From the NCBI GenBank assembly GCA_017430925.1, contig JAFRMA010000098.1, positions 1-64,000 on the forward strand: DNA of 64,000 nt, in the 5' to 3' direction. The position numbers and the translations under genes were made by a program. Below the pieces are notes generated by a model. The model was not told the DNA's origin. It did not search any database and saw nothing but the letters and a program-made list of their open reading frames with translations. The DNA comes from Solobacterium sp. (GTDB lineage Bacteria > Bacillota_I > Bacilli_A > Erysipelotrichales > Erysipelotrichaceae). Each line of letters starts with the position of its first letter. Positions within the stretch are counted from its first letter, which is position 1. This document shows positions 7,785 to 50,895 of this stretch, piece after piece.

Positions 7785-10091
7785 TTACGCGTTTTTACGA
7801 TTACGGTTGAAGTTGATCAGGCATCCTGCCTTGACGATTTCACGCTCTTCAGCTGTCATTTCCTTGATGTAGAGGTGGATTTCCTTTGCCTCACCGTTCT
7901 TGATAACATACGCAGGGATTTCATCCAGAGTATTCTCTGTCAGAGCTTTGAGGATATTCGGCACATAGATGTAATCATCGACTTCGAAGTCTACCGGTTC
8001 GCCCTTGAGATGGAATGGTAACATACCCCAGTTCATGACGTTGGAGCGATAACGCTTTGTGGCATAATCCTGTGTGATATTCGCAAGACCGCCGATAACT
8101 CTCTGGCAGGAAGCTGCCTGTTCACGCGCGGAACCATCACCAGGCTTGTTTGCGTAGATCGTAGATCCGATCTCTGTCTCATCCGGCTTCACATTCTCGT
8201 TTCCGGGAATTGTATTGATGACTTTGAATACTTCTGACAGTTCCGGTGCTTTGGCAACGACATCTTCACCTTTACCTCTGGCAATTTCTAATGCGTCTAC
8301 GACTTTTGTCTTGCCTACATACTGCGGATCGCGTCTGGACAGGGTGAATTCCGCAAGACCCAGCGGATTGGAACGGTAGGAAGAAGTTTCTCCGGAAGGA
8401 ATCAGTTCGTCGGTAGTTGTGACTTCGTCAAGAATCTTTGAGCATACCTTCAGTAATACATTCTCTCCAAGAGGATGACGTTCCGGCCAGTCTTTGATAT
8501 TCGGTCCGTAGAACAGAGGTTCTTCCAGATCTGCCTTGCCGAAGCCGAAGTATACTCTGGCGTCATAAGGAGCACGGTCGAAGTGGTATTCAGGAACATT
8601 GCCGAAAGCTTCCGGATACTGTTCCGCACTGGTCAGCAGGCCTCCGTTGAGAGCAGTTGCCGCAATACTTCTGGCATCCATCAGAGCTACCGCAGACATC
8701 TGTCCGTTACCCGGCTTGGAACCTTCACGGTTCGGGAAGTTTCTGGTTGTATGACGGATGGAAAGACCGTTGTGGTTCGGTGTGTCACCTGCGCCGAAGC
8801 ACGGACCGCAGAACGCTGTCTTGATTACAGCACCGCTTGCCATCAGATCCGCAAGGATACCCTTACGGCTGAGGTCCATATATACAGGCATGGAGGAAGG
8901 ATATACACTCAGTGTAAATTCTCCGGCACCGATATATTTACCCTTTAACAGGTTGTTCGCTTCTACAACATTGGTATAGTTACCGCCTGCGCATCCGCCG
9001 ATAATACCCTGCTGTACCTGTAACTTACCGTCTTTGATTTTATCCAGTAATGTATAAGGAGCTCTGCCCTGGCTTACACCTTCCGCAGCCTTCTCTGTTT
9101 CTCTCAAAATCTCTTCCAGGTGTTCATACAGATAATCAATTTCGTATGCGTTGCTTGGGTGGAACGGAAGCGCAATCATCGGCTTGATCGTATCGAGATC
9201 GATGTATACACATCCGTCATAGTAGGCGACTTCTTTCGGATCCAGTTTCTTGTACTGATCACCTCTGCCATGTTCCGCAAGGAATGCGTGTGTATCTTCA
9301 TCGGTTACCCAGATGGACGACAGGCAGGTTGTTTCTGTTGTCATAACATCGACGCCGTTTCTGTAATCTGTGGTCATAGACGCTACACCAGGGCCGACAA
9401 ATTCCATAACTTTATTCTTTACGTAACCGTTCTTGTATACAGCGCCGCAGATCGCAATCGCGATATCATGAGGTCCTACCCATAGTTTCGGTTTGCCGGT
9501 CAGATAGATCGCGATGACTTCCGGGTAGTTGTTGTCCCAGGTATCACCGAGAATCTGCTTATCCAGTTCTCCGCCGCCTTCACCGACAGCCATGGTACCC
9601 AATGCACCGTAACGTGTATGGGAGTCAGAACCGAGGATCATCTTACCGCATCCTGCAGACATCTCTCTCATGTACTGGTGAATGACACCAACATGCGGAG
9701 GCACAAAGATACCGCCGTATTTCTTTGCGGCAGTCAGACCGAACATGTGGTCATCTTCGTTGATCGTACCGCCTACAGCATTTAACGAGTTATGGCAGCA
9801 GGTCAGTGTATACGGAATCGGGAATGTGTCCATGCCGGAAGCTCTGGCTGTCTGAATGATACCGACATAAGTGATATCATGTGAGGTTAATTCATCAAAC
9901 TTGATCTTCAGCTTATCCATGGAATCACTCTGATTATGTGCTTCCAGAATACCGTAGGAAATGGTGCCCTTCCTTGCTTCGGTTTTATCTGCAGGTTTTC
10001 CGGTCAGTTGTTCTACTTTACCGGCTTCGCTCTCTTTTACGATTTCTTTCCCGTTTACCAGATAAATGCCTTCATCATACAGTTTAATCAT
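7785..10091 (-). CDS. Aconitase-family hydratase, YbhJ-like
   Basis: This 768-residue protein belongs to the aconitase superfamily. The three 4Fe-4S cysteines appear at C367 (GGCAGGNY) and at C428 and C431 (FCGPCFGAG). [11 protein letters not shown] (155-165) is a substrate-site motif. Overall length and the swivel-like C-terminal part (from about 600) resemble E. coli YbhJ-type hydratases rather than aconitase A or the small LeuC/LeuD pair. It should hydrate or dehydrate a di- or tricarboxylic acid, substrate unknown. It is monocistronic, with its own ribosome binding site (CAGGAGGAAG) and terminator. Carboxylic-acid genes cluster downstream in the window, so it may act on citrate, isopropylmalate-like or methyl-substituted acids. 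Confidence 0.85.
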
Positions 10092-15735: not shown

Positions 15736-15764
15736 TATGATTAGTGTAGGTAAAAGGTTTTACC
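15736..15764 (+). promoter_or_regulatory. Extended -10 promoter plus palindromic operator upstream of the dehydrogenase gene
   Basis: TGGTATGAT (15733-15741) is an extended -10 box. Immediately after the predicted start point is GGTAAAAGGTTTTACC (15749-15764), a palindrome with 7-bp arms. The same GGTAAA-N4-TTTACC pattern recurs at 23561 in front of the transporter operon, and a variant occurs at 25802 by the LacI gene. It is therefore a likely shared operator. Confidence 0.65.
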
Positions 15765-15789: not shown

Positions 15790-16884
15790 ATGCGGACATT
15801 TACGATTGCAACATTGCCAGGTGATGGTATCGGCCCTGAAATCATCCGTGAAGGAGTGAAGGTAATTGAAGCCGTAGAGGAAGGTTTTGACTCTTTCAAA
15901 CTAAATTTTGATTATTACGATGCCGGTGCAGCATTCTACCGCGATACCGGTGTGATCATTGCCAAAGAAGTTGAACAAGCGATGGATTCCGCGGATGCGA
16001 TCTTCCTTGGGGCTATGGGACTTCCCGAAGTTACTCTTCCTGATGGTACAGAAACCCAGGGAATCATTATCAACGGTACAAGAAAACGTCTGAATCTGTT
16101 TGCGGGCGTACGTCCTATCCGTCTGATGCCAAACGTACAGTCACCGCTCAAGGGAAAAGATAAGATCGACTTTGTGATCGTCCGTGAAAGTTCGGAAGGA
16201 TTATTTGCGTCCTTCATGTCCGGCGCAAACGTTTATGACAAAGTATATGCAGATACGATGATCATTACCCGTGAAGGAACAGAGAAAGTTACAGATTACG
16301 CATTCCGTTTATCTGAGAAACGTAACGGCAGACCTTCCGATGGTAAGAAGGTCGTCACCTGTGTAGACAAGTCCAACAACTTCACCTCTCAGGCATTCTT
16401 CCGCAAGATCTATAACGAGGTCGCGGAAAAGTATCCGGAAATCGGCAGAGATTACTCCTATGTTGACGCCATCAACATCAACCTGATCCTCCATCCGGAG
16501 AACTATGACGTACTTGTATCAGAGAATATCTTTGGTGATATCATTTCCGACATGGCAGCGACATTGGTCGGCGGTATGGGTATGGCTCCTTCCGGAGATA
16601 TCGGTTATGATCATGCGATGTTCCAGCCTGCACACGGCTCAGCTCCTACACTTGCAGGAAAGAACGTAGCAAATCCGATTGCGACGATTCTCTCCGGTGC
16701 CATGATGCTTGAATGGCTTGGAAACAAGTTTGGCGTAGAAGATATGGTCAAAGCTTCTGAAATCATCACAAAAGCAGTAGACCAGGTACTGATCAACGGA
16801 CATCTGACCAGAGATATCGGTGGTGATACATCCACATCAGACTTTGGTGACTATACCGTTGAAGAGATCCGCAAACTCATCTAA
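15790..16884 (+). CDS. Isocitrate/isopropylmalate dehydrogenase family enzyme (beta-decarboxylating)
   Basis: The 364-residue protein has the family signatures: LPGDGIGPEI (9-18), the Arg/substrate segment ITREGTEKV, and the metal- and NAD-site block NIFGDIISDMAATLVGGMGMAPSG (from about 241). GSAPTLAGKNVANPIAT is the adenosine-binding region. Enzymes of this family oxidise a 2-hydroxy-3-substituted acid (isopropylmalate, isocitrate, homoisocitrate, tartrate, methylmalate) and usually decarboxylate it. LeuA, LeuC and LeuD are absent nearby, so a catabolic substrate is more likely than leucine synthesis. The shared palindrome links it to the transporter/HMG-lyase operon. CGGAGG supports the start. 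Confidence 0.85.
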   Translation: MRTFTIATLPGDGIGPEIIREGVKVIEAVEEGFDSFKLNFDYYDAGAAFYRDTGVIIAKEVEQAMDSADAIFLGAMGLPEVTLPDGTETQGIIINGTRKRLNLFAGVRPIRLMPNVQSPLKGKDKIDFVIVRESSEGLFASFMSGANVYDKVYADTMIITREGTEKVTDYAFRLSEKRNGRPSDGKKVVTCVDKSNNFTSQAFFRKIYNEVAEKYPEIGRDYSYVDAININLILHPENYDVLVSENIFGDIISDMAATLVGGMGMAPSGDIGYDHAMFQPAHGSAPTLAGKNVANPIATILSGAMMLEWLGNKFGVEDMVKASEIITKAVDQVLINGHLTRDIGGDTSTSDFGDYTVEEIRKLI

Positions 16885-16970: not shown

Positions 16971-17894
16971 CTATTCTGCTGCACGCTTGAAGTGTTCAAG
17001 GTTCAGGATATAACTATCACAGGAATTCCCCTGAGCGAGTTCTTCAACATAGAGACCGGCTTCGATCAACTTGTCAAAGTCGATACCTGTATCAATACCC
17101 ATACCCTGTAACATGTATACCAGGTCTTCTGTGGAGATATTTCCGGTAGCACCCTTGACAACATTACAGCCGCCTGTACCTGCCAGTGAAGAATCAATAT
17201 ACTCTACGCCTGCGTCAATTGCCGCAATGACGTTCGCAAGACCGGCGCCTCTGGTGTTATGCGGATGGAATGCCCAATGCTCAACATTCGGGTAATATGC
17301 CATCATATCCGTGAAGAACTGTCTTACCATGACCGGAGTTGCCAGACCGGCAGTATCATTCAGAGAAATATCCGTTGCGCCGTTCTCCAGGAAACAGTCA
17401 ATGATCGTACGCAGTGTATCATAGGTGATCTCATCACCGAACGGAGACGCAAATGCCAGAGAAATCGATCCCAGCAGGGCAACGTTGTTTTTCTTCGCAA
17501 CATTTCCGATTTCAGTAAAGCCTTTCAGGCCTTCTTCCAGAGAACGATTGGTCATCAGTTCAAAGTGCTTCCGGGAAGCAGAAGTATTGATCTTGAACTT
17601 ATTACAGCCATATTCAACAGCCTGTCTTGCGCCTGCCGGAGTCTGTAACAGAGCTCTGTAGACAACGCCTTCCTTACGGTTCATCTTCGCGAACACTTCC
17701 GGTGTGTTGGCCATCAGCGGGAATGCGGTGGTATCCGGCAGGAAGGAACCTACTTCGATTTCCTTGATTCCGGCATCAACCATCATATCCAGAAGACGTA
17801 CTTTTTCATCCGCGCCTACCATAAAGGGCAGGTTCTGCATACCATCACGTGTGCTTACTTCACACACTCTGATTGTTTTCGGTACATTAAACAT
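16971..17894 (-). CDS. HMG-CoA lyase-like enzyme (DRE-TIM metallolyase), copy 1
   Basis: The 307-residue protein is an HMG-CoA lyase homologue. The catalytic Arg-Asp pair is R16-D17 in CEVSTRDGMQN. The metal-binding histidines are H210 and H212 (FHPHNTRG). The catalytic cysteine is C243 in the loop SLAGTGGCNVVKGATGN, followed by the family STEDLVYMLQGMG. Cleavage of a 3-hydroxy-3-substituted acyl compound by a retro-Claisen reaction is expected. True substrates might be HMG-CoA or another 3-hydroxyacid thioester. It lies 11 nt downstream of a paralogue in the same operon and is the last gene before the terminator. Confidence 0.85.
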   Translation of the reverse strand: MFNVPKTIRVCEVSTRDGMQNLPFMVGADEKVRLLDMMVDAGIKEIEVGSFLPDTTAFPLMANTPEVFAKMNRKEGVVYRALLQTPAGARQAVEYGCNKFKINTSASRKHFELMTNRSLEEGLKGFTEIGNVAKKNNVALLGSISLAFASPFGDEITYDTLRTIIDCFLENGATDISLNDTAGLATPVMVRQFFTDMMAYYPNVEHWAFHPHNTRGAGLANVIAAIDAGVEYIDSSLAGTGGCNVVKGATGNISTEDLVYMLQGMGIDTGIDFDKLIEAGLYVEELAQGNSCDSYILNLEHFKRAAE

Positions 17895-17905
17895 ATTTGT
17901 TACTC

Positions 17906-18844
17906 CTATTCTATACTTCCGTCACCCTGACGCTTGTACTGCTCAAGGCGAAGAAGATAACTATCCCACTTATCCGCAGGAACAAGTTCTTTGGTATATT
18001 CTCCGGCAACCAGAAGCTTCGCGAAGTCTATACCTGTTGTTACCCCAAGACCATCCAGCATATATACCAGATCTTCTGTAGAGATGTTTCCTGAAGCATT
18101 CTTGAATACCGTGCATCCTCCTGTACCCGCAAGGGAAGAGTCTACGTTCAATACACCGGCATCAATTGCGCTGAGTGTATTTGCCAGACCCATACCACGT
18201 GTATTATGCGGATGGAAGCACCATCTCTCTACGTTCGGGAATTCTGCCATCATGGCCTTGAAATACTCGTTAACCAGACCCGGTGTAGCCATACCTGCAG
18301 TATCGTTCATGGAGATCTGTGTAACACCGATATCCAGGAAGTTGGAGATGATCATACGCAGTCTGTCCAGAGGTACTCTGCCGTCATACGGAGACTCAAA
18401 CGCAAGGGAGATTGAACCAAGTAATGTGACATTGTTTTCTGCCGCGATCTGACCGATTTTGGCGAAGCCTTTGATTCCTTCTTCGATCGACTTTCCGGTC
18501 ATCAGTTCATAGTGTTTCTGACTTCCGGAGATATTGATCTTGAACTTATTACAGCCATGATCTACAGCCTGCTGAGCACCTGCCGGTGTCTGTAACAGAG
18601 CTCTGTAGACAACACCTTCTTTACGCTCAAGATTGTCAAAAACATCCGGTGTGTTTGCCATCTGATTCTTAGCTGCGCGGTCATCCGGCAAGAAAGATCC
18701 TACTTCAATCTCTTTGATTCCCGCATCAGTGATCAGGTTTAATAGTCTGACTTTTTCCGGAACTCCAATCATGTAAGGAAGTGACTGGAAGCCGTCTCTC
18801 GTACAAACTTCGCAGACGCGTATTTCTTTAGGTGTATTAAACAT
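17906..18844 (-). CDS. HMG-CoA lyase-like enzyme (DRE-TIM metallolyase), copy 2
   Basis: This 312-residue protein is a diverged paralogue of the next gene, with the same layout: R16-D17 in CEVCTRDGFQS, H211 and H213 in FHPHNTRGMG, and C244 in SLAGTGGCTVFKNASGN. Both copies keep all catalytic residues, so neither looks decayed. Two lyases side by side suggest related but different substrates or stereoisomers, or a hetero-oligomer. Classical HMG-CoA lyases take part in leucine breakdown, but no other leucine-catabolic gene (such as methylcrotonyl-CoA carboxylase) is in the window. Confidence 0.85.
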   Translation of the reverse strand: MFNTPKEIRVCEVCTRDGFQSLPYMIGVPEKVRLLNLITDAGIKEIEVGSFLPDDRAAKNQMANTPDVFDNLERKEGVVYRALLQTPAGAQQAVDHGCNKFKINISGSQKHYELMTGKSIEEGIKGFAKIGQIAAENNVTLLGSISLAFESPYDGRVPLDRLRMIISNFLDIGVTQISMNDTAGMATPGLVNEYFKAMMAEFPNVERWCFHPHNTRGMGLANTLSAIDAGVLNVDSSLAGTGGCTVFKNASGNISTEDLVYMLDGLGVTTGIDFAKLLVAGEYTKELVPADKWDSYLLRLEQYKRQGDGSIE

Positions 18845-18865
18845 ACATACACCTCCTTTCTGATA

Positions 18866-19684
18866 CTACAGGTATTTCTCAAAGAACGCAGTGGCTGTCG
18901 CAATTCTCTCGGCATCTCCGTCTTCATGCGCAATGCCCGGGATGATTGCCAGTTCTACTGTTTCTACACCGTTATCCAGGTAATTCTGCTGCAGTGTCTT
19001 CATCCGGTCAACACGGTTTGTGCCATACTTGGAATCACCGATAAACAGGTTGTCTTTTTCACCGACAACGATGATTACAGGTACCTTGCGGATTGCCGGG
19101 AGATCCAGTTCCTGACCGAAGACCTTCTTGAAATCCTTCACACCCCAGTAAAAGTTTTCTTCAAAATCGAGGTATGTCGGTCTGCCGGGCGCGCCGATAT
19201 TCACTGCTTTAAGACGATCCGGGTGCAGATACAGGAAACGATGGACAAACTGTCCGCCGCCGGAATGACCGAACAGGAAGAACTTCTCTGTTTCAATACA
19301 CCCCTCATAACGGGCTGCCATATCATCGATCATATTCAGCAGGACCTGATCATAGAAGATTCCATCCTGATGAACCATCTTATACGCATTGAAATCGTCA
19401 TGTACAACTACACCACTCGGGAATAACGGTGCCAGAATTGCGGCATTGTGCTCATCCGCCCACTTCTTTGCCAGACGTACATAGTGCTCGGTTGCGCAGC
19501 CGGTGCCGTGAACCAGAACAACTAACTGGTAATGCGGATTCTCTTCCTCATAAAAGCTGTCCGGTACATGTACCCAGTACGGGAAACGGGGATCACTCGG
19601 ACATGTCCACAACATGTTCAGGTCTGCGTTTCCGAACAGGTTCTTACGTGTTTCCTTGGTTAACCCTTCAGTTAAACTTGCCAT
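18866..19684 (-). CDS. Alpha/beta hydrolase, PHB-depolymerase/feruloyl-esterase-like
   Basis: The 272-residue protein has the alpha/beta-hydrolase hallmarks: oxyanion motif LVHGTG (near residue 57), nucleophile elbow GHSGGG with S141, a VVGEKDNLF acid region and a C-terminal GIAHEDGD histidine. No signal peptide is seen, so it is cytoplasmic. It resembles poly(3-hydroxybutyrate)-depolymerase-like and feruloyl-esterase-like hydrolases. It sits 21 nt from the HMG-lyase genes and 12 nt from the first of two esterases. It may cleave an ester or thioester of the acid handled by this operon. Confidence 0.8.
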   Translation of the reverse strand: MASLTEGLTKETRKNLFGNADLNMLWTCPSDPRFPYWVHVPDSFYEEENPHYQLVVLVHGTGCATEHYVRLAKKWADEHNAAILAPLFPSGVVVHDDFNAYKMVHQDGIFYDQVLLNMIDDMAARYEGCIETEKFFLFGHSGGGQFVHRFLYLHPDRLKAVNIGAPGRPTYLDFEENFYWGVKDFKKVFGQELDLPAIRKVPVIIVVGEKDNLFIGDSKYGTNRVDRMKTLQQNYLDNGVETVELAIIPGIAHEDGDAERIATATAFFEKYL

Positions 19685-19696
19685 TGTAGTACTCTC

Positions 19697-20506
19697 CTAA
19701 TCTTTGTCCTGGAATATCCAGCGCACTGCGTCCGGGAAACGATATCTCCATTCCCTCTGGTTATGCATTGCGTCAGGATAGATGTTGTATTTGATGATAT
19801 CTGCAGGAACTCCGTGTTTCAGGTAGTTCTCATACATCATGTTCGCGCCGTCCAGGAATTCTTCTTTCGTGGTCATACGGCCGAATTCGTTGGTTCCGAC
19901 ATCCATATACAGATATTTCAGATGACTGTAGGAACCGTTATCCAGAGATTCCTGGAGTTTATCCAGCCAGATACAAACCGCGGAACTCATCGCAATGATC
20001 CGATGGAAGGTTTCCGGGTGAGATACTGCCGCATAGACTGCGCTCAGACCACCTGTACTATATCCTGCATATGCTGTATTATCCGGATCCGGTAATGTAC
20101 GATATATCGCATCCACGTAGTTCTTCAGGTCTGTAACCATCCACTGCAGATATTCCTTACCTAAACCGTCAATATGCGGTTCAAACTTCTTTTCAGGCGG
20201 TACATCAAAATCCTTGGTATACGGTGAATACTCTGCTGTACGTTCTGCCGGATCAAATGGTGCTGAGATTGCCACATAAATGACCTGGGGCATAAATTTG
20301 CCGTAATCATCCATATACTGTTCCAGACGAAGGCTTTCCGCGCCGCGGTATGTCTGGTCATCTCTGTACAGATCCTGACCATCACTGACATAAAGTACAG
20401 GATAACGCTTATCACTGTCTTCATAGCCTTCAGGCACCATGATCCTGACCAGAACAGGCCGGTCATTGATCGTTGTTATACATGTGTTATATTCATCTAT
20501 TCTCAT
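19697..20506 (-). CDS. Putative esterase (enterochelin esterase-like alpha/beta hydrolase), copy 1
   Basis: The 269-residue enzyme has the esterase pattern RYPVLYVSDGQDLY (near residue 34) and nucleophile elbow GYSTGG with S150. A C-terminal HNQREWRYRFPDAVRWIF segment carries the likely catalytic histidine. It is cytoplasmic, with no signal peptide. It is a clear paralogue of the next gene downstream in coordinates (20518-21324), sharing YxPYTK, FDVP and the C-terminal RFPDAxRW. Enterochelin-esterase-like enzymes hydrolyse esters of hydroxy acids, which fits an operon led by a hydroxycarboxylate transporter. Confidence 0.8.
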   Translation of the reverse strand: MRIDEYNTCITTINDRPVLVRIMVPEGYEDSDKRYPVLYVSDGQDLYRDDQTYRGAESLRLEQYMDDYGKFMPQVIYVAISAPFDPAERTAEYSPYTKDFDVPPEKKFEPHIDGLGKEYLQWMVTDLKNYVDAIYRTLPDPDNTAYAGYSTGGLSAVYAAVSHPETFHRIIAMSSAVCIWLDKLQESLDNGSYSHLKYLYMDVGTNEFGRMTTKEEFLDGANMMYENYLKHGVPADIIKYNIYPDAMHNQREWRYRFPDAVRWIFQDKD

Positions 20507-20517
20507 ATTATTTACTC

Positions 20518-21324
20518 CTAATTAATATCCCTGTATACCCAGCGTATAGCATCCGGAAAACGTGGACGAAGTGATGTATGATCGTGTACCACACTTTCTT
20601 CACATATCCGGAGAAGAATATGATCCTGGTCAAAACCGTAATCCTGCAGTCTCTGATAGACTGTATTTGCACCGTCGATGAAATCCTGCGGTGTTGAAAA
20701 ACGGCCATGATCATTGATACCGGTATCGATATATACATACTTCAACTGGTCCAGATTACATCTGTCCATGGTTTTCAGTAATTTGTCCATCCAGATATTT
20801 ACGGCGCCACTCAGCATAATCACCCGGGAAAATACACGTGTGTATTTCATTCCCGCATAGATACTGAGTAAACCACCGATACTGAATCCGCCGATCCCGG
20901 TATACTCCGCTTCCGGTTTTGTCCGGTAGTTGGAATCAATCCAGGGCTTTAGTTCCGAAATCAGCCAGTTTAAATAGATCTCTCCCTGTCCTTCGATATC
21001 CGATTCAAAGTATACCCCTTCAGGCACATCAAAATGCTTTGTATATGGCGCATACAATCTTGTGCGTTTTGTGTTATCCGGCGGGCAGTCAATACCCACA
21101 ATGATGACTTTCGGCAGATATGCGGCAAATTTGGAATAATACTCGGCATAACGATAACTATGCCCGTCATACGCATCTTCGTCATAAAAGATGTCCTGTC
21201 CATCCTGCATGTACAGAACCGGATATTTCTCTTTCGTCTCTTCATACCCCTCCGGAGTCATGACCCGGAAAGTAACATCATAGTTCAACGCTGTGATTTT
21301 TGACTGAAATGTCTGAATATCCAT
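20518..21324 (-). CDS. Putative esterase (enterochelin esterase-like alpha/beta hydrolase), copy 2
   Basis: This 268-residue paralogue of the neighbouring esterase has KYPVLYMQDGQDIF (near 33), the nucleophile elbow GGFSIGG with S148, and the same C-terminal RPRFPDAIRWVYRD. Both nucleophile and histidine regions are intact. The pair probably arose by tandem duplication, as did the two lyases in this operon. It lies 11 nt from copy 1 and 8 nt from the upstream gene, so they are co-translated. Confidence 0.8.
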   Translation of the reverse strand: MDIQTFQSKITALNYDVTFRVMTPEGYEETKEKYPVLYMQDGQDIFYDEDAYDGHSYRYAEYYSKFAAYLPKVIIVGIDCPPDNTKRTRLYAPYTKHFDVPEGVYFESDIEGQGEIYLNWLISELKPWIDSNYRTKPEAEYTGIGGFSIGGLLSIYAGMKYTRVFSRVIMLSGAVNIWMDKLLKTMDRCNLDQLKYVYIDTGINDHGRFSTPQDFIDGANTVYQRLQDYGFDQDHILLRICEESVVHDHTSLRPRFPDAIRWVYRDIN

Positions 21325-21332
21325 AATTAGAC

Positions 21333-22139
21333 CTATTTCTTTTTCAGTGCTCTTATTTCCTGCGGAACGATATCCAGGATCTTCTCTGATGTTTCAGGGA
21401 TATAGAGCTTCCTGTCTTCATGGATCGTCCCTTCGTATACCTTTTCTTTTGCTATTGTTGTCAATGAATATTCAGTATGTACCATCTCTTTGCGCTTACC
21501 TTTTTTCATGGTTTCCAGAATTTCTTCATAGATGAAAAATTCAACGACAAGATACTGATTCATACGTATCGCTTCATTTCTCAAAAGTTCCTGATGTTTC
21601 TGTTCATACAGATCCCAGGAGATCGCCTTTAGATCAAGTTCTTCCGGACTGCGCTTCAGTACATCTTCTTTCAGATCAAACAAATATACGACCTGCGCCT
21701 CAATGCCATAGACTACATTCTTTACAAAGGGATTATCCATCCGGTAGAGATGTTCACCATCCCGGATCAGTAATACCGGCTTGAATGATTTCTGATTCCG
21801 CAGATACCCGAAAGCATATACACAATCTTCCGAGATTCCATGTTTTATGAAGGTTTCTTTTAACTGACGCAGATTCTTCTGTTCGATCTCCGTGTATTCA
21901 TCAAAGAGTTTGTGTTTCTTACGATTGATCACCAGCGAGACCAATATCAGATATACACCGGCAATCAAAAGGAAAATACCGTTCTGAGTAAACATATATA
22001 AACTTGTAGGAAAGAGTAACAGAACCAGATAGGAACTCTGTTCCTGCCGGATACGTTCATGCCTGGCCGTATATTCTTTATACGGACCATTTACCTGATA
22101 CTGCGGCGTGAATGTACTTTTCTTCCTAAACAAACCCAT
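21333..22139 (-). CDS. Conserved membrane-associated protein of unknown function
   Basis: I do not recognise this 268-residue family. The N terminus is basic and ends in a membrane hairpin (about residues 36-70: YLVLLLFPTSLYMFTQNG and IFLLIAGVYLILVSLVI). A soluble, charged C-terminal region of about 190 residues follows, with many aromatic and basic residues. It lies between the transporter gene (60 nt) and the esterase genes (8 nt) in one operon. It may be a membrane-linked accessory of transport or signalling, but this is only inference from position. Confidence 0.6.
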   Translation of the reverse strand: MGLFRKKSTFTPQYQVNGPYKEYTARHERIRQEQSSYLVLLLFPTSLYMFTQNGIFLLIAGVYLILVSLVINRKKHKLFDEYTEIEQKNLRQLKETFIKHGISEDCVYAFGYLRNQKSFKPVLLIRDGEHLYRMDNPFVKNVVYGIEAQVVYLFDLKEDVLKRSPEELDLKAISWDLYEQKHQELLRNEAIRMNQYLVVEFFIYEEILETMKKGKRKEMVHTEYSLTTIAKEKVYEGTIHEDRKLYIPETSEKILDIVPQEIRALKKK

Positions 22140-22199
22140 AGTTTTTCCTCAGAACGGTATTCAATTATTTATTGATTATTGTGATCGCAGTTTGTCCGA

Positions 22200-23534
22200 T
22201 TACATCATGCCGAACAATACACTGGCGACAACAAGCATCAGAGCACCACCGATACGGGAAGAGATCTGAGCATAGCTCATCATATCCATACGGTTGGCTG
22301 CACCTAATACCTGAACGTCACCGGAACCACCACCGTTAGCCATACAGAGACCAGCGGTAATGATCGCTTCGATCGGATAGAACTTGAACAGTTTACCAAC
22401 AAAGAACGTACCAATCATACATCCGACAACTGTCGCGAACATGCAGAAGAGACTTCCGAGGTTAGCGAATGCACCAAGGTAATCTGTCAGACTGGAGCCG
22501 ATACCAACAGTGATCATCAGCGGGAAGCTCATGTACTGAACGAAGAATCTCTGCATTGCACGAGCACCTGCACGAATTTCAACCGGGATAATACCGGAGA
22601 TGTTCAACAGAGCAACCAGGATGACCATGAATGCGAATTCATGAATAGAGAAGCCAAGACCTGCTCTGTTGATGAAGGAAATGTTCTTTCCATAGAATGT
22701 AGCAATCTGGAAGCAGAACAGACCTAACGCAAGACCACATGCATATTCCTGAGGTCCGCACTTAACTTTGTCGATCGGATCTTCACCGGCAGCCATGTTG
22801 CCTTCTGTCTTCATTAACTGACCATGACCATTCCATTCAGGCTTTCTGTCACCGATTCTGTTCAGCAGAGCGCCGAAGATAACTGCGAAGAGGTTACCGA
22901 TGGAGATAACTGCGAAACTCTTTGCCCACCATGCGGAAGCCGCCTGTGTAGCAGCATCACCTTCCAGACCTAAAGCGGCCGCGTACATCTTGGACATCGG
23001 GGTAATACCAGCACCGTTACCACCGCCCATGATCGGAACTGCATAGTCCATCATTGACTGTACGAAGCCAAGTCCGAACACTGTACCAACAAGACCGCAG
23101 AGTAACATAGCACATGCAACACCACCGATAATTGTCGGGATATATCCTGCGAAGGACTTGATCAGCATCTTTCTGTCGATGGATAATACTGAACCTGTAA
23201 TCAGAACCAGAATATAGAGGTTCAGGAAGCCTGTACCGCCGTTGAATGTATTCAGAGCAGCGACAGTATTCTCACCAAGCAGATGGAATGTGTTGAAGGC
23301 TGCAGCTGTGAGGGATGTAAATAACATACCGCCGCCCAGCCAGTCTTTCCATACAGGAATGTGGTTACCAATCCAGCCTAAGCAGGAACCGACAACCAGC
23401 GCGAAGCCGAGAGCACCAACCATGTTGGTGATCATCTTGTCTGTCTTTCCCAGAATCATGAAGACTACTGCCATAACAGCAATCATCCAAACGGGGAAGC
23501 CGAGAATTTTTGTTTGAGCTTTTTCCGTACTCAT
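22200..23534 (-). CDS. 2-hydroxycarboxylate transporter family protein (CitS/MaeN/CimH-like)
   Basis: The 444-residue polytopic membrane protein belongs to the 2HCT family. It carries the two inverted-repeat reentrant loop motifs, PIMGGGNGAG (about residue 168) and MANGGGSGD (about residue 400), each followed by an amphipathic segment. About eleven hydrophobic spans are visible. The family imports citrate, malate, lactate or related 2-hydroxy acids with Na+ or H+, or exchanges them. It heads a seven-gene operon. Its promoter carries a cre-like site between -35 and -10 and a palindromic operator at the start point, so carbon-source control is likely. Confidence 0.9.
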   Translation of the reverse strand: MSTEKAQTKILGFPVWMIAVMAVVFMILGKTDKMITNMVGALGFALVVGSCLGWIGNHIPVWKDWLGGGMLFTSLTAAAFNTFHLLGENTVAALNTFNGGTGFLNLYILVLITGSVLSIDRKMLIKSFAGYIPTIIGGVACAMLLCGLVGTVFGLGFVQSMMDYAVPIMGGGNGAGITPMSKMYAAALGLEGDAATQAASAWWAKSFAVISIGNLFAVIFGALLNRIGDRKPEWNGHGQLMKTEGNMAAGEDPIDKVKCGPQEYACGLALGLFCFQIATFYGKNISFINRAGLGFSIHEFAFMVILVALLNISGIIPVEIRAGARAMQRFFVQYMSFPLMITVGIGSSLTDYLGAFANLGSLFCMFATVVGCMIGTFFVGKLFKFYPIEAIITAGLCMANGGGSGDVQVLGAANRMDMMSYAQISSRIGGALMLVVASVLFGMM

Positions 23535-23560: not shown

Positions 23561-23578
23561 AGGTAAAACGGTTTACCT
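23561..23578. promoter_or_regulatory. Palindromic operator of the transporter operon
   Basis: AGGTAAAACGGTTTACCT has 7-bp arms and a CG-containing centre, the form of LacI-family operators. It lies just downstream of the predicted start point (near 23581), at about +3 to +20. It matches the palindromes at 15749 and 25802. Confidence 0.7.
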
Positions 23579-23586
23579 GTAAATCT

Positions 23587-23615
23587 ACTTTAATAATGGA
23601 AACGCTTTCTGTCAA
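23587..23615 (-). promoter_or_regulatory. Transporter operon promoter with embedded cre-like site
   Basis: On the minus strand a consensus TTGACA (23610-23615) and TAAAGT (23587-23592) are 17 nt apart. Between them, TGGAAACGCTTTCT (23597-23610) closely matches the catabolite-responsive element bound by CcpA-type proteins. Binding there would block RNA polymerase. Confidence 0.65.
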
Positions 23616-23645: not shown

Positions 23646-24719
23646 CTAAATTTCGTACTTCTTGTATGTACCTTCGCACGGATTGCCTTTGCATACATAG
23701 GAACACTGATTCTGGAAATCTACAACGATACTGGCTACTGTCATCACCCCATTCATGTCTGCAGGATCACCGGAATTCGCATGATTACAGATGGAGTTCG
23801 GATAAAATTCATGATCTTTCATGCACTCCATGATAGATTCAACGGTGATATTCCCATAATCGTGGTAAAGCAGACTTGCCAGTCTGACCTGACGATTTCT
23901 TGTCGAGGATAAAATACCTGTGGGACCCTTATCCTTGCTGGGATCTACTGAGAAATGATTCGCATGCGTCACAATACCACCAACCGGATGAATCAAATCA
24001 CAGCCCATCGGACTCGCTTCAATATCCACCGCTTTGTCTTCTGCACCGGATACCAACACAGAGTTGTTGGAAACACTTCTCTTAATACCTGTGATCCAGT
24101 TGAACGCTTCTTCATATGTCTTGCAGGCAAGTACTTTTCTTCTCAGGAAACACACCGGAATACCACCGCCCGGGCCGTCATATTTGGATGCGATCATATT
24201 GTTGCACAGACCGATTCCGTGGTTGTTATAGCCTTCTCTCAATAACTGACCTGCTTCAGTAAGGCCAAAGATTCTCGTTCCATCTTCTTCGATAATATGC
24301 AGTAATACGATCTTATCCAGTACACCAGGACGATAATCCCAGTTCTTGACCATAATCGTACCGTGATTCTTGGTTGCTTCCGCAAGAACCGCCCCGGTAG
24401 TACACTCTGCCACAGGCTGAATCGGATAGTTAGTCAATTCATAACGTGTATTAAGCACCATCAATCCCTCAAAAGGAACACCAGCACCCTCAGCGACACC
24501 TTTCGCTTCTTCCAAAACCTCCGGCATTGCTTCTTCGATATCCGGCACAAATGCCATCGCTAGTTTTGTGGTGACTTCCCATGGTTGTCCCTTCCCTTCA
24601 AAGTAAGCACGATAATTGGCAATCCCTGCTTTGATTCTGTCTGCTGCGGCTTTACCGTATTGAACACCACGTTCAAAAGGTGTTGATGCGTCGATTACAA
24701 TAACATCAAATTCTTTCAT
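23646..24719 (-). CDS. C45 family Ntn-hydrolase / acyl-CoA:6-aminopenicillanate acyltransferase-like
   Basis: The 357-residue protein resembles isopenicillin N acyltransferase-type Ntn hydrolases. The likely self-cleavage site is before C106 in VAECTTGAVL, giving an N-terminal nucleophile cysteine. The following NWDYRPG and the later ASPMGCDLIHP and GIVTHANHF segments are typical of the family. Gut relatives hydrolyse or transfer amide-linked acyl groups. The substrate is unknown. No signal peptide is visible. It is transcribed toward the transporter operon but separated from it by that operon's own promoter. Confidence 0.85.
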   Translation of the reverse strand: MKEFDVIVIDASTPFERGVQYGKAAADRIKAGIANYRAYFEGKGQPWEVTTKLAMAFVPDIEEAMPEVLEEAKGVAEGAGVPFEGLMVLNTRYELTNYPIQPVAECTTGAVLAEATKNHGTIMVKNWDYRPGVLDKIVLLHIIEEDGTRIFGLTEAGQLLREGYNNHGIGLCNNMIASKYDGPGGGIPVCFLRRKVLACKTYEEAFNWITGIKRSVSNNSVLVSGAEDKAVDIEASPMGCDLIHPVGGIVTHANHFSVDPSKDKGPTGILSSTRNRQVRLASLLYHDYGNITVESIMECMKDHEFYPNSICNHANSGDPADMNGVMTVASIVVDFQNQCSYVCKGNPCEGTYKKYEI

Positions 24720-25801: not shown

Positions 25802-25817
25802 GATAAATCGTTTTATC
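25802..25817. promoter_or_regulatory. Palindromic operator between the LysR and LacI genes
   Basis: GATAAATCGTTTTATC has 6-bp arms around a CG-containing centre. It fits GRTAAA-N4-TTTAYC together with the sites at 15749 and 23561. A TATAAT box for the LacI gene lies downstream (25855-25860). The site suggests autoregulation or control of the divergent LysR gene. Confidence 0.55.
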
Positions 25818-25886: not shown

Positions 25887-26891
25887 ATGGGAGTTACCAT
25901 CAAAGATGTCGCAAAAAAAACCGGTGTATCCGTGACTACGGTATCTTTGGTGTTAAACAAGAAAACCAGCCGGATTTCCGAGAAGACCCGTCAGCTGATT
26001 GAAGAAGCTGCCAGAGAACTGAATTATGTTCCGAATCAGACAGCAGTATCTCTGGTAACCAAGAAGACCCAGCTGATCGGAATGATCGTACCGGCAGACA
26101 CATATTATCAGTACTCTGACTTTATCCGGTCTGTAGAATATGCGTGTAAAAATGCCGGTTACTATCTGAATATCTCCCTTGCGGAACATACTCCGGAAAG
26201 CATCGGGAAACAGATCCAGGCATTGATGCGTTATAACGTGGACGGGATCATTCTGGACCCTTCACTACTTCGTGACCCTTCGGATTCCCTATGTGAAATG
26301 ATCCGGAATCAGTCCATCCCCATCGTCTCCACGGATCAGATCAATAATCAGGCACTGCCAAATGCCATTCTCCCGGACCACAAAAGAGGCGCATACATCG
26401 CTGCAGAATATCTGCTGGAACTCGGGCATACTTCTATAGGATTGATTACCGGACCGGATTCACTGAGTATTACTGCTTCCATGGTCCAGGGATATCGTGA
26501 AGCTCTGGAGTCTTATCATATCCCGTTTGCGGAAGATAAGATCTACTGCGGCTCTTATCATCTTCAGACCGGATATTCCGGGGCAGAACAGTTGATTAAC
26601 GAATATGATATCTCAGCAGTCATCACTGCTTCGGATGCCATCGCATATGGTGTATATAAATACGCAAATGATCATCATCTTGTCCTTGGCAAAGATCTGT
26701 CTCTGATCACTTACGGATCTGGATCTTTGATTGACACCATGGGTCTTCCGCTGACTTCCGTATCGATCCATCTCGACCGGATTGCCAGAAAGTCCGTGAA
26801 CCTGATCCGCAGCTATAACCATGAACTTGTAAATACTGAAGTCATTGAGCCTACGCTGATTGAACGGGGAAGTACGGGTAGAAAACTGTAG
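25887..26891 (+). CDS. LacI family transcriptional regulator
   Basis: The 334-residue protein starts MGVTIKDVAKKTGVSVTTVS, a canonical LacI helix-turn-helix. The hinge-helix segment (NYVPNQTAVSL, about residues 46-56) and a periplasmic-binding-protein-like effector domain follow. It is the only LacI-type regulator in the window, and LacI-type palindromes lie at 25802, 23561 and 15749, so it is the best candidate regulator of the dehydrogenase gene and the transporter/HMG-lyase operon. The ligand is unknown. ACAGGAG supports the start, and a strong bidirectional terminator follows. Confidence 0.93.
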   Translation: MGVTIKDVAKKTGVSVTTVSLVLNKKTSRISEKTRQLIEEAARELNYVPNQTAVSLVTKKTQLIGMIVPADTYYQYSDFIRSVEYACKNAGYYLNISLAEHTPESIGKQIQALMRYNVDGIILDPSLLRDPSDSLCEMIRNQSIPIVSTDQINNQALPNAILPDHKRGAYIAAEYLLELGHTSIGLITGPDSLSITASMVQGYREALESYHIPFAEDKIYCGSYHLQTGYSGAEQLINEYDISAVITASDAIAYGVYKYANDHHLVLGKDLSLITYGSGSLIDTMGLPLTSVSIHLDRIARKSVNLIRSYNHELVNTEVIEPTLIERGSTGRKL

Positions 26892-37403: not shown

Positions 37404-38960
37404 TTACAGTTTATACGGTTTGATCTTTCTGACTACGTCAAGGATCGTACCATCTCTCGCTTCAAGTACAGCGACAACTTTGTCTTCCCACTGCAGGTCA
37501 TCCGGACGGCCGACAAGACTGTATGCCTTTTCTTTCAGACTTTCGATCGTCACATGCTTGATTCCTGCTTTATCCAGGCACTCGATCAGATCCGGTCTTA
37601 ACGGATTGACTGCGATACCATAGTCAGTAACCAGTACGTCTACACAGTCGCCGGGAGTTGTTACGGTAACCACATGTTCACATACGGTTGCCATACGTCC
37701 TCTGGTCAGAGGAGTAACGATAATACATACCTTGGAGCCTGCGGCTGTATCCGGATGTCCGCCCGGCGCGCCTCTCAGGACACCGTCAGAACCAGTCAAT
37801 ACGTTAACGTTGAAGTCTGTATCGATTTCCAGAGCAGCTAATACAACGAAGTCCAGTTTATTGACAAATGCGCCTTTATTTGCCGGATTCGCATACTGGG
37901 AAGCACTCATTTCAAAGTGATTCGGAGTCTGATTGATACTATGTACAGCATCCAGGTCAAAGTCCTGAACATCAATAACCTTACCGACTTTACCCTTCTT
38001 CAGAAGTTCAACCATCGGACCGCAGATACCGCCGATTGCCCATCCCATCTTGATGTTACGTTCATCCATCAGTTTCTCCAGGAACAGGTTGGCAGCCAGA
38101 GAAGGTCCGCCTACACCGGTCTGGAAAGAGAAACCTTCCTTGAAATACGGAGTAGAAGCGATAACTCTCGCAACATCCTCTGCCATCATCAGATCTCTCG
38201 GATTCTGCGAAATACGTGCAGCTGCAGAAGCAATCTTCTTCGGATTACCGATGGAATCAACAACAACGACTGCATCCACATCAATTGCTTCAACACTTGC
38301 CGGATAGTTCGGGAAATCAACGAGGCAGTCTGTAACGACAACAACATGATCCGCAAACTTCGCGTCGGTCATCGCATAGCCCATACTGCCGCAGTCACTC
38401 TTACCGCCGATACCACGGCAGTTACCTACACAGTCACTGGTCGGAGCTGCTACAAACGCGATATCGATGTGTACTTCACCTGCTTCAATCGCACGAGGTC
38501 TGCCGCCATGGCTGCGGATAATTGCCGGAGTCTTTAACTTACCAGCAGATACCACTTCACCCATACGTCCGCGGATACCACTGGTCTGGATACCAACTAC
38601 CTTACCCTGTTCAATATAATCCGCAATCGGATCATGAGCACTACCCAGGGAAGTAGCCGCAATTGTCAGATCTTCAAGACCAAGCTCTTCGATTGCTGCT
38701 TTCATAACCATGTTTACGACATAGTCACCATCTCTTAAGTGATGATGGAAACTGAATGTCATACCACTCTTGGCGCCGCAGTCTCTTAATGCCTGAGCCA
38801 GTGAATCAACGATCTTGCTTTCCTGCGGTTTCTCATAACGGCGGGTTTTCGGCCCGGCTTTCTGGATATATTTACCATCCAGGTAATTCTTACCCTGATA
38901 TACTTCCTTGCCGTTTACCAGCAATTCTTCCGGGATGTCTCTTCCTACAGCGTTTTTCAT
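37404..38960 (-). CDS. citF: Citrate lyase alpha subunit (citrate:acetyl-ACP transferase)
   Basis: The 518-residue protein matches CitF. It moves the acetyl group between the CitD carrier and citrate to form citryl-ACP, in the cytoplasmic citrate lyase complex. The N terminus (MKNAVGRDIPE) and the FSFHHHLRDGDYVVNMVM segment near residue 105 are strong CitF signatures. GGHPDTAAGSK near 405 is also typical. It overlaps citE by 4 nt (ATGA). The complex normally needs the CitC ligase, CitG and CitX to attach the prosthetic group; none is in the window. Confidence 0.96.
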   Translation of the reverse strand: MKNAVGRDIPEELLVNGKEVYQGKNYLDGKYIQKAGPKTRRYEKPQESKIVDSLAQALRDCGAKSGMTFSFHHHLRDGDYVVNMVMKAAIEELGLEDLTIAATSLGSAHDPIADYIEQGKVVGIQTSGIRGRMGEVVSAGKLKTPAIIRSHGGRPRAIEAGEVHIDIAFVAAPTSDCVGNCRGIGGKSDCGSMGYAMTDAKFADHVVVVTDCLVDFPNYPASVEAIDVDAVVVVDSIGNPKKIASAAARISQNPRDLMMAEDVARVIASTPYFKEGFSFQTGVGGPSLAANLFLEKLMDERNIKMGWAIGGICGPMVELLKKGKVGKVIDVQDFDLDAVHSINQTPNHFEMSASQYANPANKGAFVNKLDFVVLAALEIDTDFNVNVLTGSDGVLRGAPGGHPDTAAGSKVCIIVTPLTRGRMATVCEHVVTVTTPGDCVDVLVTDYGIAVNPLRPDLIECLDKAGIKHVTIESLKEKAYSLVGRPDDLQWEDKVVAVLEARDGTILDVVRKIKPYKL

Positions 38961-39871
38961 ACCAGATCCCCCTCATACAAACCGCAAGCTTTAGCCAGAC
39001 GCAGAGTTCTTTCCGCTCCCGGAATGAATGCGATATCAACCATCTTGCCGTTTACTGTAAATACACCGAGACCCTTGGCCGCATTCTCACGGAATGCACT
39101 GACCATCTGCTCAGCCTGAATGATTTCTTTTTCTGTCGGTGCGAATACTTCATGAACATAACGAATCTGTTTCGGGTTGATCAGACTCTTACCGTCAAAG
39201 CCCATAGCTTTGTTCTGCTGAACTTCTGCACGGAAGCCTTCTTCATCATCCAGATCTGTAAATACTGTATCAAAGCACTGTACACCTGCTGCTCTTGCGG
39301 CAATCAGCATCATTCCTCTTGCTGTTACCATATCGATACCATCTCTGGTCGGCTTTGTCTGCATGCACTTACGGAAGTCTCCGCCGCTGATTGCCACACC
39401 AAGCATACGATCCGATGCTGCACAGATCTCATACGCATTCAGAATACCCTTAGGGCTTTCCAAAGCAGCCATTAATAAGGTTCTGCCCTTTTCTACACCG
39501 AATTCCTCTTCCGCAGCTTCTACAGCTTTCTCTACGGTAATGACATCCTGCGCGCTTTCACACTTGGCGATACGGATACCATCAGCGCCGCCGGCAACAC
39601 ATACACGGATATCTTCCTGCCAGTGCGGAGTATCCAGACCATTGATACGTACGATAACCTCTGTATCACCGTAATCAATTGTCTTCAACGCATGGTACAG
39701 AGAGAATCTTGCGGAATCTTTCTGGTTTTCTGCTACGGCATCTTCCAGATCCAGCATGATACTGTCACAGCCGTAAATATAAGCATCTTTGATTAATCCC
39801 GGTTTCTGCGCGTTCATGAACATCATGGTTCTGCGCAGACGGTCTTTCTGTGGTTTCGGACGCGGAATCAT
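38957..39871 (-). CDS. citE: Citrate lyase beta subunit (citryl-ACP lyase)
   Basis: CitE splits citryl-ACP into oxaloacetate and acetyl-ACP. From the ATG at 39871 the protein has 304 residues, the normal length. LRRTMMFMNAQKPGLIKDA (11-29) and IYGCDSIMLDLEDAVAENQK (near 31) are family signatures, with the Mg2+ site in the LLMAALESPKGILNA region. The ATG overlaps the citD stop by 4 nt. A longer frame starts at a TTG inside citD and is less likely because GGGGAGG lies between the two starts. It lies between citD and citF. Confidence 0.96.
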   Translation of the reverse strand: MIPRPKPQKDRLRRTMMFMNAQKPGLIKDAYIYGCDSIMLDLEDAVAENQKDSARFSLYHALKTIDYGDTEVIVRINGLDTPHWQEDIRVCVAGGADGIRIAKCESAQDVITVEKAVEAAEEEFGVEKGRTLLMAALESPKGILNAYEICAASDRMLGVAISGGDFRKCMQTKPTRDGIDMVTARGMMLIAARAAGVQCFDTVFTDLDDEEGFRAEVQQNKAMGFDGKSLINPKQIRYVHEVFAPTEKEIIQAEQMVSAFRENAAKGLGVFTVNGKMVDIAFIPGAERTLRLAKACGLYEGDLV

Positions 39872-40170
39872 CGAATCATTCCTCCCCAAGGAATATCCTT
39901 GTCAGCCTTGTCACAGCTGCGGAATACCGCACACTCAATACGAGCAGCCAGAGTACAGTCCAAAGCACCCTTATCCACTACCGTGATCTTCGCATTATCT
40001 ACTTCCAATCTTTCCAGAGTAGCCAATACAGTCTCTTTAATCTGACGACCATACTGGTTCATGACGCTGCTGGATAACTCTAACTCAACGGTGCCGTTTC
40101 CCGGTTCAACGGTTACCTGGGCATCACTTGATTCAAGAGTACCAGCCATGGCAGTCTTTTTGATTTCCAT
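39868..40170 (-). CDS. citD: Citrate lyase acyl carrier protein (gamma subunit)
   Basis: The 100-residue CitD carries the 2'-(5''-phosphoribosyl)-3'-dephospho-CoA arm. The attachment serine is S14 in AGTLESSDA, the family motif. The C-terminal GMIR end is normal. GGGAGG before the ATG marks the start. It is the first gene of citD-citE-citF. The upstream 137 nt are very AT-rich and hold TATAAT-like boxes (for example 40259-40264 on the minus strand). Confidence 0.95.
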   Translation of the reverse strand: MEIKKTAMAGTLESSDAQVTVEPGNGTVELELSSSVMNQYGRQIKETVLATLERLEVDNAKITVVDKGALDCTLAARIECAVFRSCDKADKDIPWGGMIR

Positions 40171-40307
40171 ACATAGCCTCCCTTTCGGTATTATCGATAA
40201 TTTAATCGTAGTATAAATATGGATATAAACAAATATATTTTTCTTTACTTTTGCATAAATTATATCTTATATAGAAATAATTTAATTTAGATTTTTGTTT
40301 ATGCGTG
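40171..40307. promoter_or_regulatory. AT-rich control region of the citrate lyase genes
   Basis: The 137 nt between the kinase-gene stop and citD are far richer in A and T than the neighbours. No terminator of the upstream kinase operon is visible, so read-through into citDEF is possible. The AT richness fits regulators of the CitI/CitO type that bind AT-rich sites, but no defined site was found. Confidence 0.35.
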
Positions 40308-48717: not shown

Positions 48718-49527
48718 TTACATCAGCCGGCTCAGAACCACTCCGTAGGAATGTAAACCGGGAATAATCGTATTCACACCGATAAAAGTAAACAGCACGA
48801 CCGGTACGGCAATTACTGCAAACCATGCCAGTTTTATTCCTGTCACCTTTTTACTGATACGCAGATGCAGGCAGATCGCATACAAGATCCAGGTAATGAG
48901 TGCCCATACTTCCTTAGGATCCCAGGTCCAGAACGAAGACCACGCTTCTTCTGCCCAGATTGCCCCAATCACGTTCGTTACCGTGAGCAGCAGCAAACAT
49001 ATCGCAATCACACGATAGATAAAGTAATCAATCTCCGGCAGACGTTCATCTTCTTTATCCTTCTTATGAATCAGAATATACCGGATACCGGAGGCTCCTG
49101 CCAGCATGAATGACGCATACGCAAACGCCGCGCTTCCGATATGTGATACAAACCAGACACTGCGCAGTGCCGGCATCAGTTCATGGATTTCTCTAGGCAA
49201 TAAAGCCGCATAAAGATAGATTGCCCAGGCCATGATCATTGCTACGGTAGTGATCCATTCCAGTCCAAGACGGTAATGCAGGAACACAAGAATCACGGAA
49301 ATACCCCAGGAGAACATCACCGCGAATTCAAATTGATTGGCCATGGGTACCCTTCCCGCCTGTATACCACGCATGACCAGATATACCGTATGTGCCGCAA
49401 ATCCTGCCATGAAGATCATCCAGGATGCTTTGGTCAATCCATCCTTCTTCCACACCTGTCCAAAGAACCGCAAAACCATACCAAGGAAATACAGTCCTAT
49501 ACCTCCAAAAAAGAATACATCCAACAT
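48718..49527 (-). CDS. CcsA/CcmC-family cytochrome c biogenesis protein
   Basis: The 269-residue protein has about eight membrane spans and the tryptophan-rich SFWTWDPKEVWALITW motif (around residue 196), which binds heme in system II heme lyases. With ResB, encoded 6 nt upstream, it forms the complex that carries heme out of the cell and attaches it to CxxCH motifs of c-type cytochromes. The adjacent pentaheme NrfA is the obvious client. In relatives such as Wolinella, a dedicated NrfI (a CcsA-ResB fusion) is needed for the CxxCK heme; here the parts are separate. Confidence 0.92.
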   Translation of the reverse strand: MLDVFFFGGIGLYFLGMVLRFFGQVWKKDGLTKASWMIFMAGFAAHTVYLVMRGIQAGRVPMANQFEFAVMFSWGISVILVFLHYRLGLEWITTVAMIMAWAIYLYAALLPREIHELMPALRSVWFVSHIGSAAFAYASFMLAGASGIRYILIHKKDKEDERLPEIDYFIYRVIAICLLLLTVTNVIGAIWAEEAWSSFWTWDPKEVWALITWILYAICLHLRISKKVTGIKLAWFAVIAVPVVLFTFIGVNTIIPGLHSYGVVLSRLM

Positions 49528-49533
49528 ATACTT

Positions 49534-50757
49534 CTACTCCTTCTCTTTTTTCAAGACAGACTTTAATCTTAGCTCTAGTCCTTCAGCTTTCTGACTGCAG
49601 ATTCGATAGCCGGCGGGTGTGACCAGCACAACAACAGGAATCCATAAGAACGTTACTGCCAGCCCAAAGACCAAAACCAGTACCGCAATCAACAGGAACA
49701 AGTTGATGTACGCAGGAGATTTCTTTATCCGAAGTCCCGGATATTCCACGGGATCTTCAAAGTAGTAGGTATAGTCACCGACATCAATACTATCTCCGGG
49801 AAACGCAAGCATCGCTTCTTGTCCGGTTTCATTGATGACCACAAATACATACACCGGATTCTCATATCTTCCGGAAGTCGATGTAATCAGCTGCATCCCT
49901 TCTTCCGTCTCCGTAAAGCCCGGATACAGATTATCTATCAGTATCCCGGTTTTCCCGTCAGATGACAGGAAGTCCTGACTTTCAATATTGAACGTATCCT
50001 GGTGATTCTTTTTATCCCTTACGGTGATCCTTCCAATCGTTCCGTATGTCTGCTGGTATACCTTGTATTGTCCTGCAGATGCCGGGTGATTCACGGATAC
50101 TTCTGTCAGTCCGCTCTCCTTCCCGTTTGGAAGAATTATATTCACTACACTCTTATAATCCAGTCTTCCTGTACTATCTGTGATGGAGAAAGAATCCACA
50201 TAAATCTCCGTACCATCTTCCAATACCAGTGATTCCTTGGGCATACATGTCTGATCCGTGATCTTCGGCATGATCATACCCAGTGCAAAGAAGACCACAG
50301 TAAACAAGATTCCCAGATGGGTGATAAATGTACCGTAACGTCCAAATCCATTCTTGTAGTAGACTGTACGGTCTCCTGTCTGTCTGGTATGACAGCGCAT
50401 CCGTACAAGCTCCAGCCTGACTTTATCCAGTGATTCCGGGTCTAGTTCAACAGTTTCTCTTCCCTGTAAAGCCGTGTCGACCAGATCTTCTTCATTGATC
50501 CTGCGGAAACGCACAATGGAACATAACGTGAGATTGATACACAGGAGAATCACGATTACCACAAAATACCAGCTGGTAAAGATCCTGTTTAATCCCAGAG
50601 TGAGAATCATCTGATAGTACGAAGGATAATTCCTGACATAGTACATTATTTCATTATTCTGTGGTATTACGCTTCCTGCCACAGAGAAAAGAATGATCAA
50701 TCCCAGAAGGATGACCCCGAATGTCATTGAGCGCAGAAATGTACTGATCTTTTTCAT
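49534..50757 (-). CDS. ResB-family cytochrome c biogenesis protein
   Basis: The 407-residue protein has the ResB pattern: a membrane span near the N terminus (SMTFGVILLGLIILFSVAGS), a second after about residue 58, a third near residue 140, a large external domain, and a fourth near residue 350. ResB holds apocytochrome c for heme attachment. It lies 6 nt before the CcsA gene on the same strand. A terminator separates it from nrfA, but partial read-through would join them. Confidence 0.9.
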   Translation of the reverse strand: MKKISTFLRSMTFGVILLGLIILFSVAGSVIPQNNEIMYYVRNYPSYYQMILTLGLNRIFTSWYFVVIVILLCINLTLCSIVRFRRINEEDLVDTALQGRETVELDPESLDKVRLELVRMRCHTRQTGDRTVYYKNGFGRYGTFITHLGILFTVVFFALGMIMPKITDQTCMPKESLVLEDGTEIYVDSFSITDSTGRLDYKSVVNIILPNGKESGLTEVSVNHPASAGQYKVYQQTYGTIGRITVRDKKNHQDTFNIESQDFLSSDGKTGILIDNLYPGFTETEEGMQLITSTSGRYENPVYVFVVINETGQEAMLAFPGDSIDVGDYTYYFEDPVEYPGLRIKKSPAYINLFLLIAVLVLVFGLAVTFLWIPVVVLVTPAGYRICSQKAEGLELRLKSVLKKEKE

Positions 50758-50840
50758 TTTTCCTGTATTTCTGAATAAACCTGTAAGTAGTATAGCATTT
50801 TACCGTGATAAATTTCCATTACGGCAAACACGGATAGGAA

Positions 50841-50867
50841 AGGGATGAAGTAATAAGCTTCATCCCT
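50841..50867 (-). terminator. Terminator of nrfA
   Basis: A perfect 10-bp stem (AGGGATGAAG/CTTCATCCCT) has a 7-nt loop and a TTTCCTATCC tail on the minus strand. It is 28 nt past the nrfA stop, between nrfA and the ResB gene. Confidence 0.88.
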
Positions 50868-50895
50868 GTATTCTGATCAAGTTGTAATCTAACAA

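Follow-up and report, generated by a model that had tools for sequence, protein, structure and literature searches.

Seven genes of a Solobacterium sp. contig (JAFRMA010000098.1; the 64,000 nucleotides from positions 1 to 64,000 were analysed and are called the window) make up one real, conserved and co-regulated operon whose role is most likely catabolic. The reading that we prefer, at a probability of roughly 40%, is that this operon, presumably controlled by a LacI-family repressor and probably subject to catabolite repression, serves the use of a 2-hydroxycarboxylate that arrives either as the free acid or as an ester. A literature search returned no description of such an operon. If the reading is correct, the ruminant gut would have a hitherto unknown pathway by which hydroxy-acid esters of plant or microbial origin are broken down, served by a lyase branch that combines the catalytic core of HMG-CoA lyase with altered neighbouring positions.

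Gene content and organization

The operon begins with a 2-hydroxycarboxylate transporter (2HCT) gene, followed by genes for a 268-aa membrane protein, three hydrolases (EstA, EstB and EstC) and two HMG-CoA-lyase-like enzymes (HMGL1 and HMGL2, the twins). All are on the minus strand, running from 23534 to 16971, and the open reading frame coordinates give intergenic gaps of 60, 8, 11, 12, 21 and 11 nt. A first-pass annotation of the window had described a co-directional operon with gaps of 8-60 nt, and every open reading frame lies where it was placed and on the minus strand; family searches also recovered the families named there (2HCT, three alpha/beta hydrolases and two HMGL-type enzymes). 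Overlooked in that annotation were lacI with its weaker operator, the C45 hydrolase, citDEF and the operator copy at a malic enzyme gene. The features referred to below are as follows.

15749..15764, no strand: LacI-type operator GGTAAAAGGTTTTACC, before the dehydrogenase gene
15790..16884, plus strand: beta-decarboxylating dehydrogenase (tartrate/isopropylmalate type), family profile match
16971..17894, minus strand: HMGL2, second lyase of the tandem pair; PF00682 at 6.2e-40; orthologues 94-96% identical in three genomes
17906..18844, minus strand: HMGL1, first lyase of the tandem pair; PF00682 at 1.7e-40; orthologues 87-92% identical
18866..19684, minus strand: EstC, alpha/beta hydrolase, PHB-depolymerase-like; GHSGG motif
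19697..20506, minus strand: EstB, PF00756 esterase; GYSTG motif
20518..21324, minus strand: EstA, PF00756 esterase; GFSIG motif; 42% identical to EstB
21333..22139, minus strand: 268-aa protein, apparently with two hydrophobic helices at the N terminus plus a soluble portion
22200..23534, minus strand: 2HCT transporter
23562..23577, no strand: LacI-type operator GGTAAAACGGTTTACC, located downstream of the predicted operon promoter
23587..23615, minus strand: predicted promoter TTGACA-17-TAAAGT, overlapped by the cre-like site ATGGAAACGCTTTCT (23596-23610)
23646..24719, minus strand: C45/AAT-type Ntn hydrolase, accompanying the operon block across genomes
25802..25817, no strand: weaker copy of the operator, GATAAATCGTTTTATC, in the interval from lysR2 to lacI
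25887..26891, plus strand: lacI, LacI-family repressor gene, the presumed regulator

Family PF00756 was matched twice, by EstA and EstB, and alignment shows the G-x-S-x-G nucleophile and the late His in both. EstC resembles PHB depolymerases and Hydrolase_4 proteins, and no signal peptide was seen in it by eye. Family searches assigned the 268-aa protein to no family at E 1e-3 and gave only weak sub-threshold matches. The predicted structures of this protein and of EstC are too poor to use (mean pLDDT 43 and 38, respectively).

Elsewhere in the window, the YbhJ-like hydratase previously described as lying near the operon is complete (7785-10091) and its identity is secure (NF008503 score of 1329.9 bits, with the cut-off at 641), but it is about 7 kb away and has no operator match. 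We know of no function for this family. Genes for an NrfA-type cytochrome c552, ResB and cytochrome c assembly proteins at 48718-52176 suggest nitrite respiration in an Erysipelotrichaceae.

Conservation and distribution

Related loci were compared from a sheep-duodenum Solobacterium (L004), Solobacterium UBA3691 (L005) and the Erysipelotrichaceae MAG RUG14114 (L006). Both L004 and L005 have the gene order C45, 2HCT, 268-aa protein, EstA, EstB, EstC, HMGL1, HMGL2, and L006 starts at a contig end within the 268-aa gene. The dN/dS values of the block genes, 0.02-0.12, show purifying selection on all of them. In L004 lacI is also conserved beside the block, and beyond it, at 2-1816, lie genes for an additional C45 hydrolase (39%) and for an EamA transporter. 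A transposase-like coding region (IS110 type, by eye) lies at 1-900 of L005, directly upstream of the C45 gene, in the place held by lysR2 and lacI in the window.

Of 273 genomes of the family, four carry the twin lyases, and all of these belong to the window's genus; judging from identities and coordinates, the remaining three carriers match the genomes of L004-L006. No further carrier was found among 392 sampled genomes of the phylum at E 1e-40, and a looser search returned only an HMGL at 30% (in G007) and weaker matches to the HMGL superfamily. The search covered family and phylum samples, beyond which plasmid HMGLs reach about 38% identity. Against the plasmid collection, the 268-aa protein gave no match, and EstA matched only distant hydrolases (<=35% identical). 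Co-occurrence of the genes across genomes, to which the first-pass annotation had looked, is borne out in three further genomes but is confined to a small set of related gut bacteria within one genus.

Regulation

A near-palindromic LacI-type operator, GGTAAAAsGkTTTACC, precedes both the transporter and the dehydrogenase genes, and a weaker copy precedes the adjacent lacI. The operator that these two genes had been said to share is thus present, at 23562 and 15749. With up to three mismatches allowed and strands counted apart, the window holds 6 operator matches against 0.2 expected. All three operators are kept in L004. The upstream region of L005 has otherwise diverged, yet it retains the transporter operator and TTGACAGAAAGCGTTT, which contains the -35 element and part of the cre-like site. 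Control by the LacI-family protein is presumed, and catabolite repression is probable. An operator match on contig C15, inside a coding frame, was set aside as chance.

The transporter and citrate

The transporter scores 406 bits against the CitS model, under the cut-off of 600, and is 38% identical to Klebsiella CitS. It retains CitS residues Asn186, Ser405 and Arg428 and the glycine-rich hairpin motifs of 2HCT proteins, and has Gly in place of Arg402 and Ser in place of Tyr348. In SeCitS, Arg402 and Tyr348 bind citrate (PMC4718727). Because both are lost, citrate is an unlikely substrate; a smaller or differently substituted 2-hydroxycarboxylate would fit better. These substitutions also bear on citrate fermentation, in which the transporter would feed the citrate lyase encoded by citD-citE-citF at 37404-40171. 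CitS is the transporter's closest relative, and citDEF in the window is complemented by a citC match on contig C112, but the lyase genes lie 14 kb away without an operator match, and fermentation of citrate would leave the HMGL-type lyases and the hydrolases without a role. We consider it very improbable.

The twin lyases

HMGL1 and HMGL2 are 66% identical to each other, compared with 29-36% to ten other HMGLs. In a tree with these ten, the twins form one branch (100/100 support) whose duplication is older than the split of the four genomes; their position beside Priestia is weak and involves long branches. In human HMGCL the critical residues are Arg41, Glu72, Tyr167 and Cys266, and the metal ligands are Asp42, His233, His235 and Asn275 (PMC6941031). 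The twins keep all four metal ligands and the catalytic Arg41, Glu72 and Cys266, and Tyr167 is replaced by Ser in all eight twin sequences. This tyrosine is present in the human, 1ydo and 2ftp HMG-CoA lyases and absent from the CaiB-linked lyases. Both twins are also altered at Val77, Asp87, Asn109, Asn138, Gly173, Cys174, Pro267 and Ala269, and HMGL1 alone at Pro83; these 8-9 positions are invariant in the ten other HMGLs. From the barrel layout rather than from coordinates, they appear to sit on catalytic-face loops.

Since Tyr167 is Ser, the residue comparison indicates that the twins are not ordinary HMG-CoA lyases, in agreement with the earlier view that leucine breakdown is unlikely. That they are true HMG-CoA lyases in leucine breakdown or ketogenesis is hardly credible: HMG-CoA lyases are their closest PDB relatives, but a critical tyrosine is replaced, both fall under the NCBIfam NF004283 cut-off (245.2 and 230.1 against 246 bits), and the gene context is different.

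The activation step

No CoA-transferase of family I or III was found (neither PF02515 nor PF01144 was matched) in the 94%-complete genome, in which the controls were detected. Among AMP ligases, the searches matched a ligase-reductase fusion and, near citC, a PaaK-like protein, neither a clear candidate for activation. The missing enzyme would be accounted for if the lyases were CoA-independent and worked like aldolases on a free hydroxy or oxo acid, and the replacement of Asn109, Asn138, Gly173/Cys174, Pro267 and Ala269 is in keeping with such a change. However, the CoA-lyase residues Cys266, Arg41 and Glu72 are all retained, and in itaconate catabolism succinyl-CoA synthetase can stand in for the CoA-transferase (PMC12290011); we regard CoA-independent cleavage as unlikely. 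There is one precedent, an unrelated CitE-type enzyme, for a lyase that accepts both HMG-CoA and citramalyl-CoA (PMC6689899).

The dehydrogenase and malic enzyme

The dehydrogenase falls between the tartrate, isopropylmalate and isocitrate dehydrogenases, scoring below every equivalog cut-off, and its best PDB match is a tartrate dehydrogenase. In this protein and in both orthologues, Phe occupies the position of the family's catalytic Tyr, so its activity may be altered; the catalytic Lys and metal-binding Asp residues are kept (motifs VDKSN, YVDAIN and NIFGDIISD, read from the alignment by eye). In L004 the dehydrogenase gene adjoins the block, while the L005 genome has its orthologue (90%) on a different contig, where no good operator copy was found.

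A malic enzyme gene elsewhere in the genome (G000, contig C47) has a two-mismatch operator copy just upstream, in promoter position, unchanged in the close genome G498. No copy was found beside the orthologue in G499, and the G500 locus offers too little upstream sequence for a comparison. By our own estimate about one two-mismatch match per genome is expected by chance, and membership of the malic enzyme in the regulon is therefore only suggestive.

These two enzymes are central to the idea that the operon serves mainly malate-type esters (e.g., the hydroxycinnamoyl-malates of forage), with malic enzyme and dehydrogenase taking the acid to pyruvate and the lyases acting on the other half of the ester. 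The operator in two close genomes, the tartrate dehydrogenase match and the three hydrolases would all fit, but the site not found in G499 and the lost catalytic Tyr count against it, and we are aware of no way in which a pair of HMGL-type lyases would act on a cinnamic acid. Malate-type esters as the main substrate seem to us distinctly unlikely.

Proposed pathway

In the preferred reading, use of a 2-hydroxycarboxylate, the 2HCT protein, whose family is clear, would import an acid other than citrate, and the three hydrolases, as cytosolic serine enzymes, would set the acid free from one or more esters. The two divergent DRE-TIM lyases would then carry out a retro-Claisen cleavage of the hydroxy acid, giving an oxo acid plus an acetyl unit; in the simplest case, a citramalate-type acid would yield pyruvate and acetyl-CoA. 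The co-regulated dehydrogenase, and perhaps the malic enzyme, would pass related hydroxy acids to pyruvate. The first-pass annotation had proposed such import, ester hydrolysis and retro-Claisen cleavage, a sequence that the protein families make plausible: the conserved, co-regulated operon contains fitting parts, whereas the chemistry is throughout what we infer.

Support for 2-hydroxycarboxylate use comes from the conservation of the block under purifying selection, from operators on transporter, dehydrogenase and lacI together with a transporter promoter footprinted between genomes, and from the mostly intact catalytic and metal residues of the lyases. Other HMGLs repeatedly adjoin a CaiB-type CoA-transferase, often with a carboxylate transporter or leuCD, and the malic enzyme site in G000 and G498 adds to the case. 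The reading is weakened by the lack of a family I/III CoA-transferase or an obviously fitting AMP ligase, by the deviation of the lyases from all compared HMGLs at putative catalytic-face positions, and by the G499 result and chance expectation for the malic enzyme site. A more specific proposal, that a new lyase subfamily, working with no CoA-transferase, cleaves the hydroxycarboxylic acid that an imported ester yields, as part of an undescribed ester-catabolic pathway of rumen bacteria, is possible but doubtful. Assays are feasible for the lyases, the hydrolases, the transporter and the repressor alike, and the last of these could reveal which compound is the natural inducer.

Comparison with known systems

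Plasmid HMGLs of similar distance adjoin CaiB-type transferases, several of them accompanied by leuCD or by transporters of the citrate:proton, TTT or MFS type. Closest in layout to this operon is the cassette of CaiB/BaiF CoA-transferase, HMGL and carboxylate transporter found in Priestia pBMG6, Nitratireductor, Skermanella and Cupriavidus pBB2. Both that cassette and this operon combine an HMGL-type lyase lacking Tyr167 with a carboxylate transporter in a small regulated cluster. The cassettes have one lyase and an adjacent CoA-transferase, whereas here the transferase is missing, the lyase is doubled, and three hydrolases and a 2HCT transporter are present, so the operon resembles a variant of the cassette. 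The itaconate/citramalyl-CoA pathway (Ict-Ich-Ccl) likewise uses a dicarboxylate and ends in cleavage to pyruvate and acetyl-CoA, as proposed here, but relies on an itaconyl-CoA hydratase together with a CitE-type lyase, both missing from this operon. Citrate and malate operons of the CitS/2HCT type share the transporter family, some with malic enzyme or citrate lyase alongside, and differ in that the transporter here has lost Arg402/Tyr348 and that the hydrolases and HMGLs have no counterpart there. Finally, the twins share family, metal ligands, Arg41, Glu72 and Cys266 with the HMG-CoA lyases of human (HMGCL), B. subtilis (1ydo) and P. aeruginosa (2ftp), and are set apart from them by the Tyr167 to Ser change and the 8-9 other altered positions.
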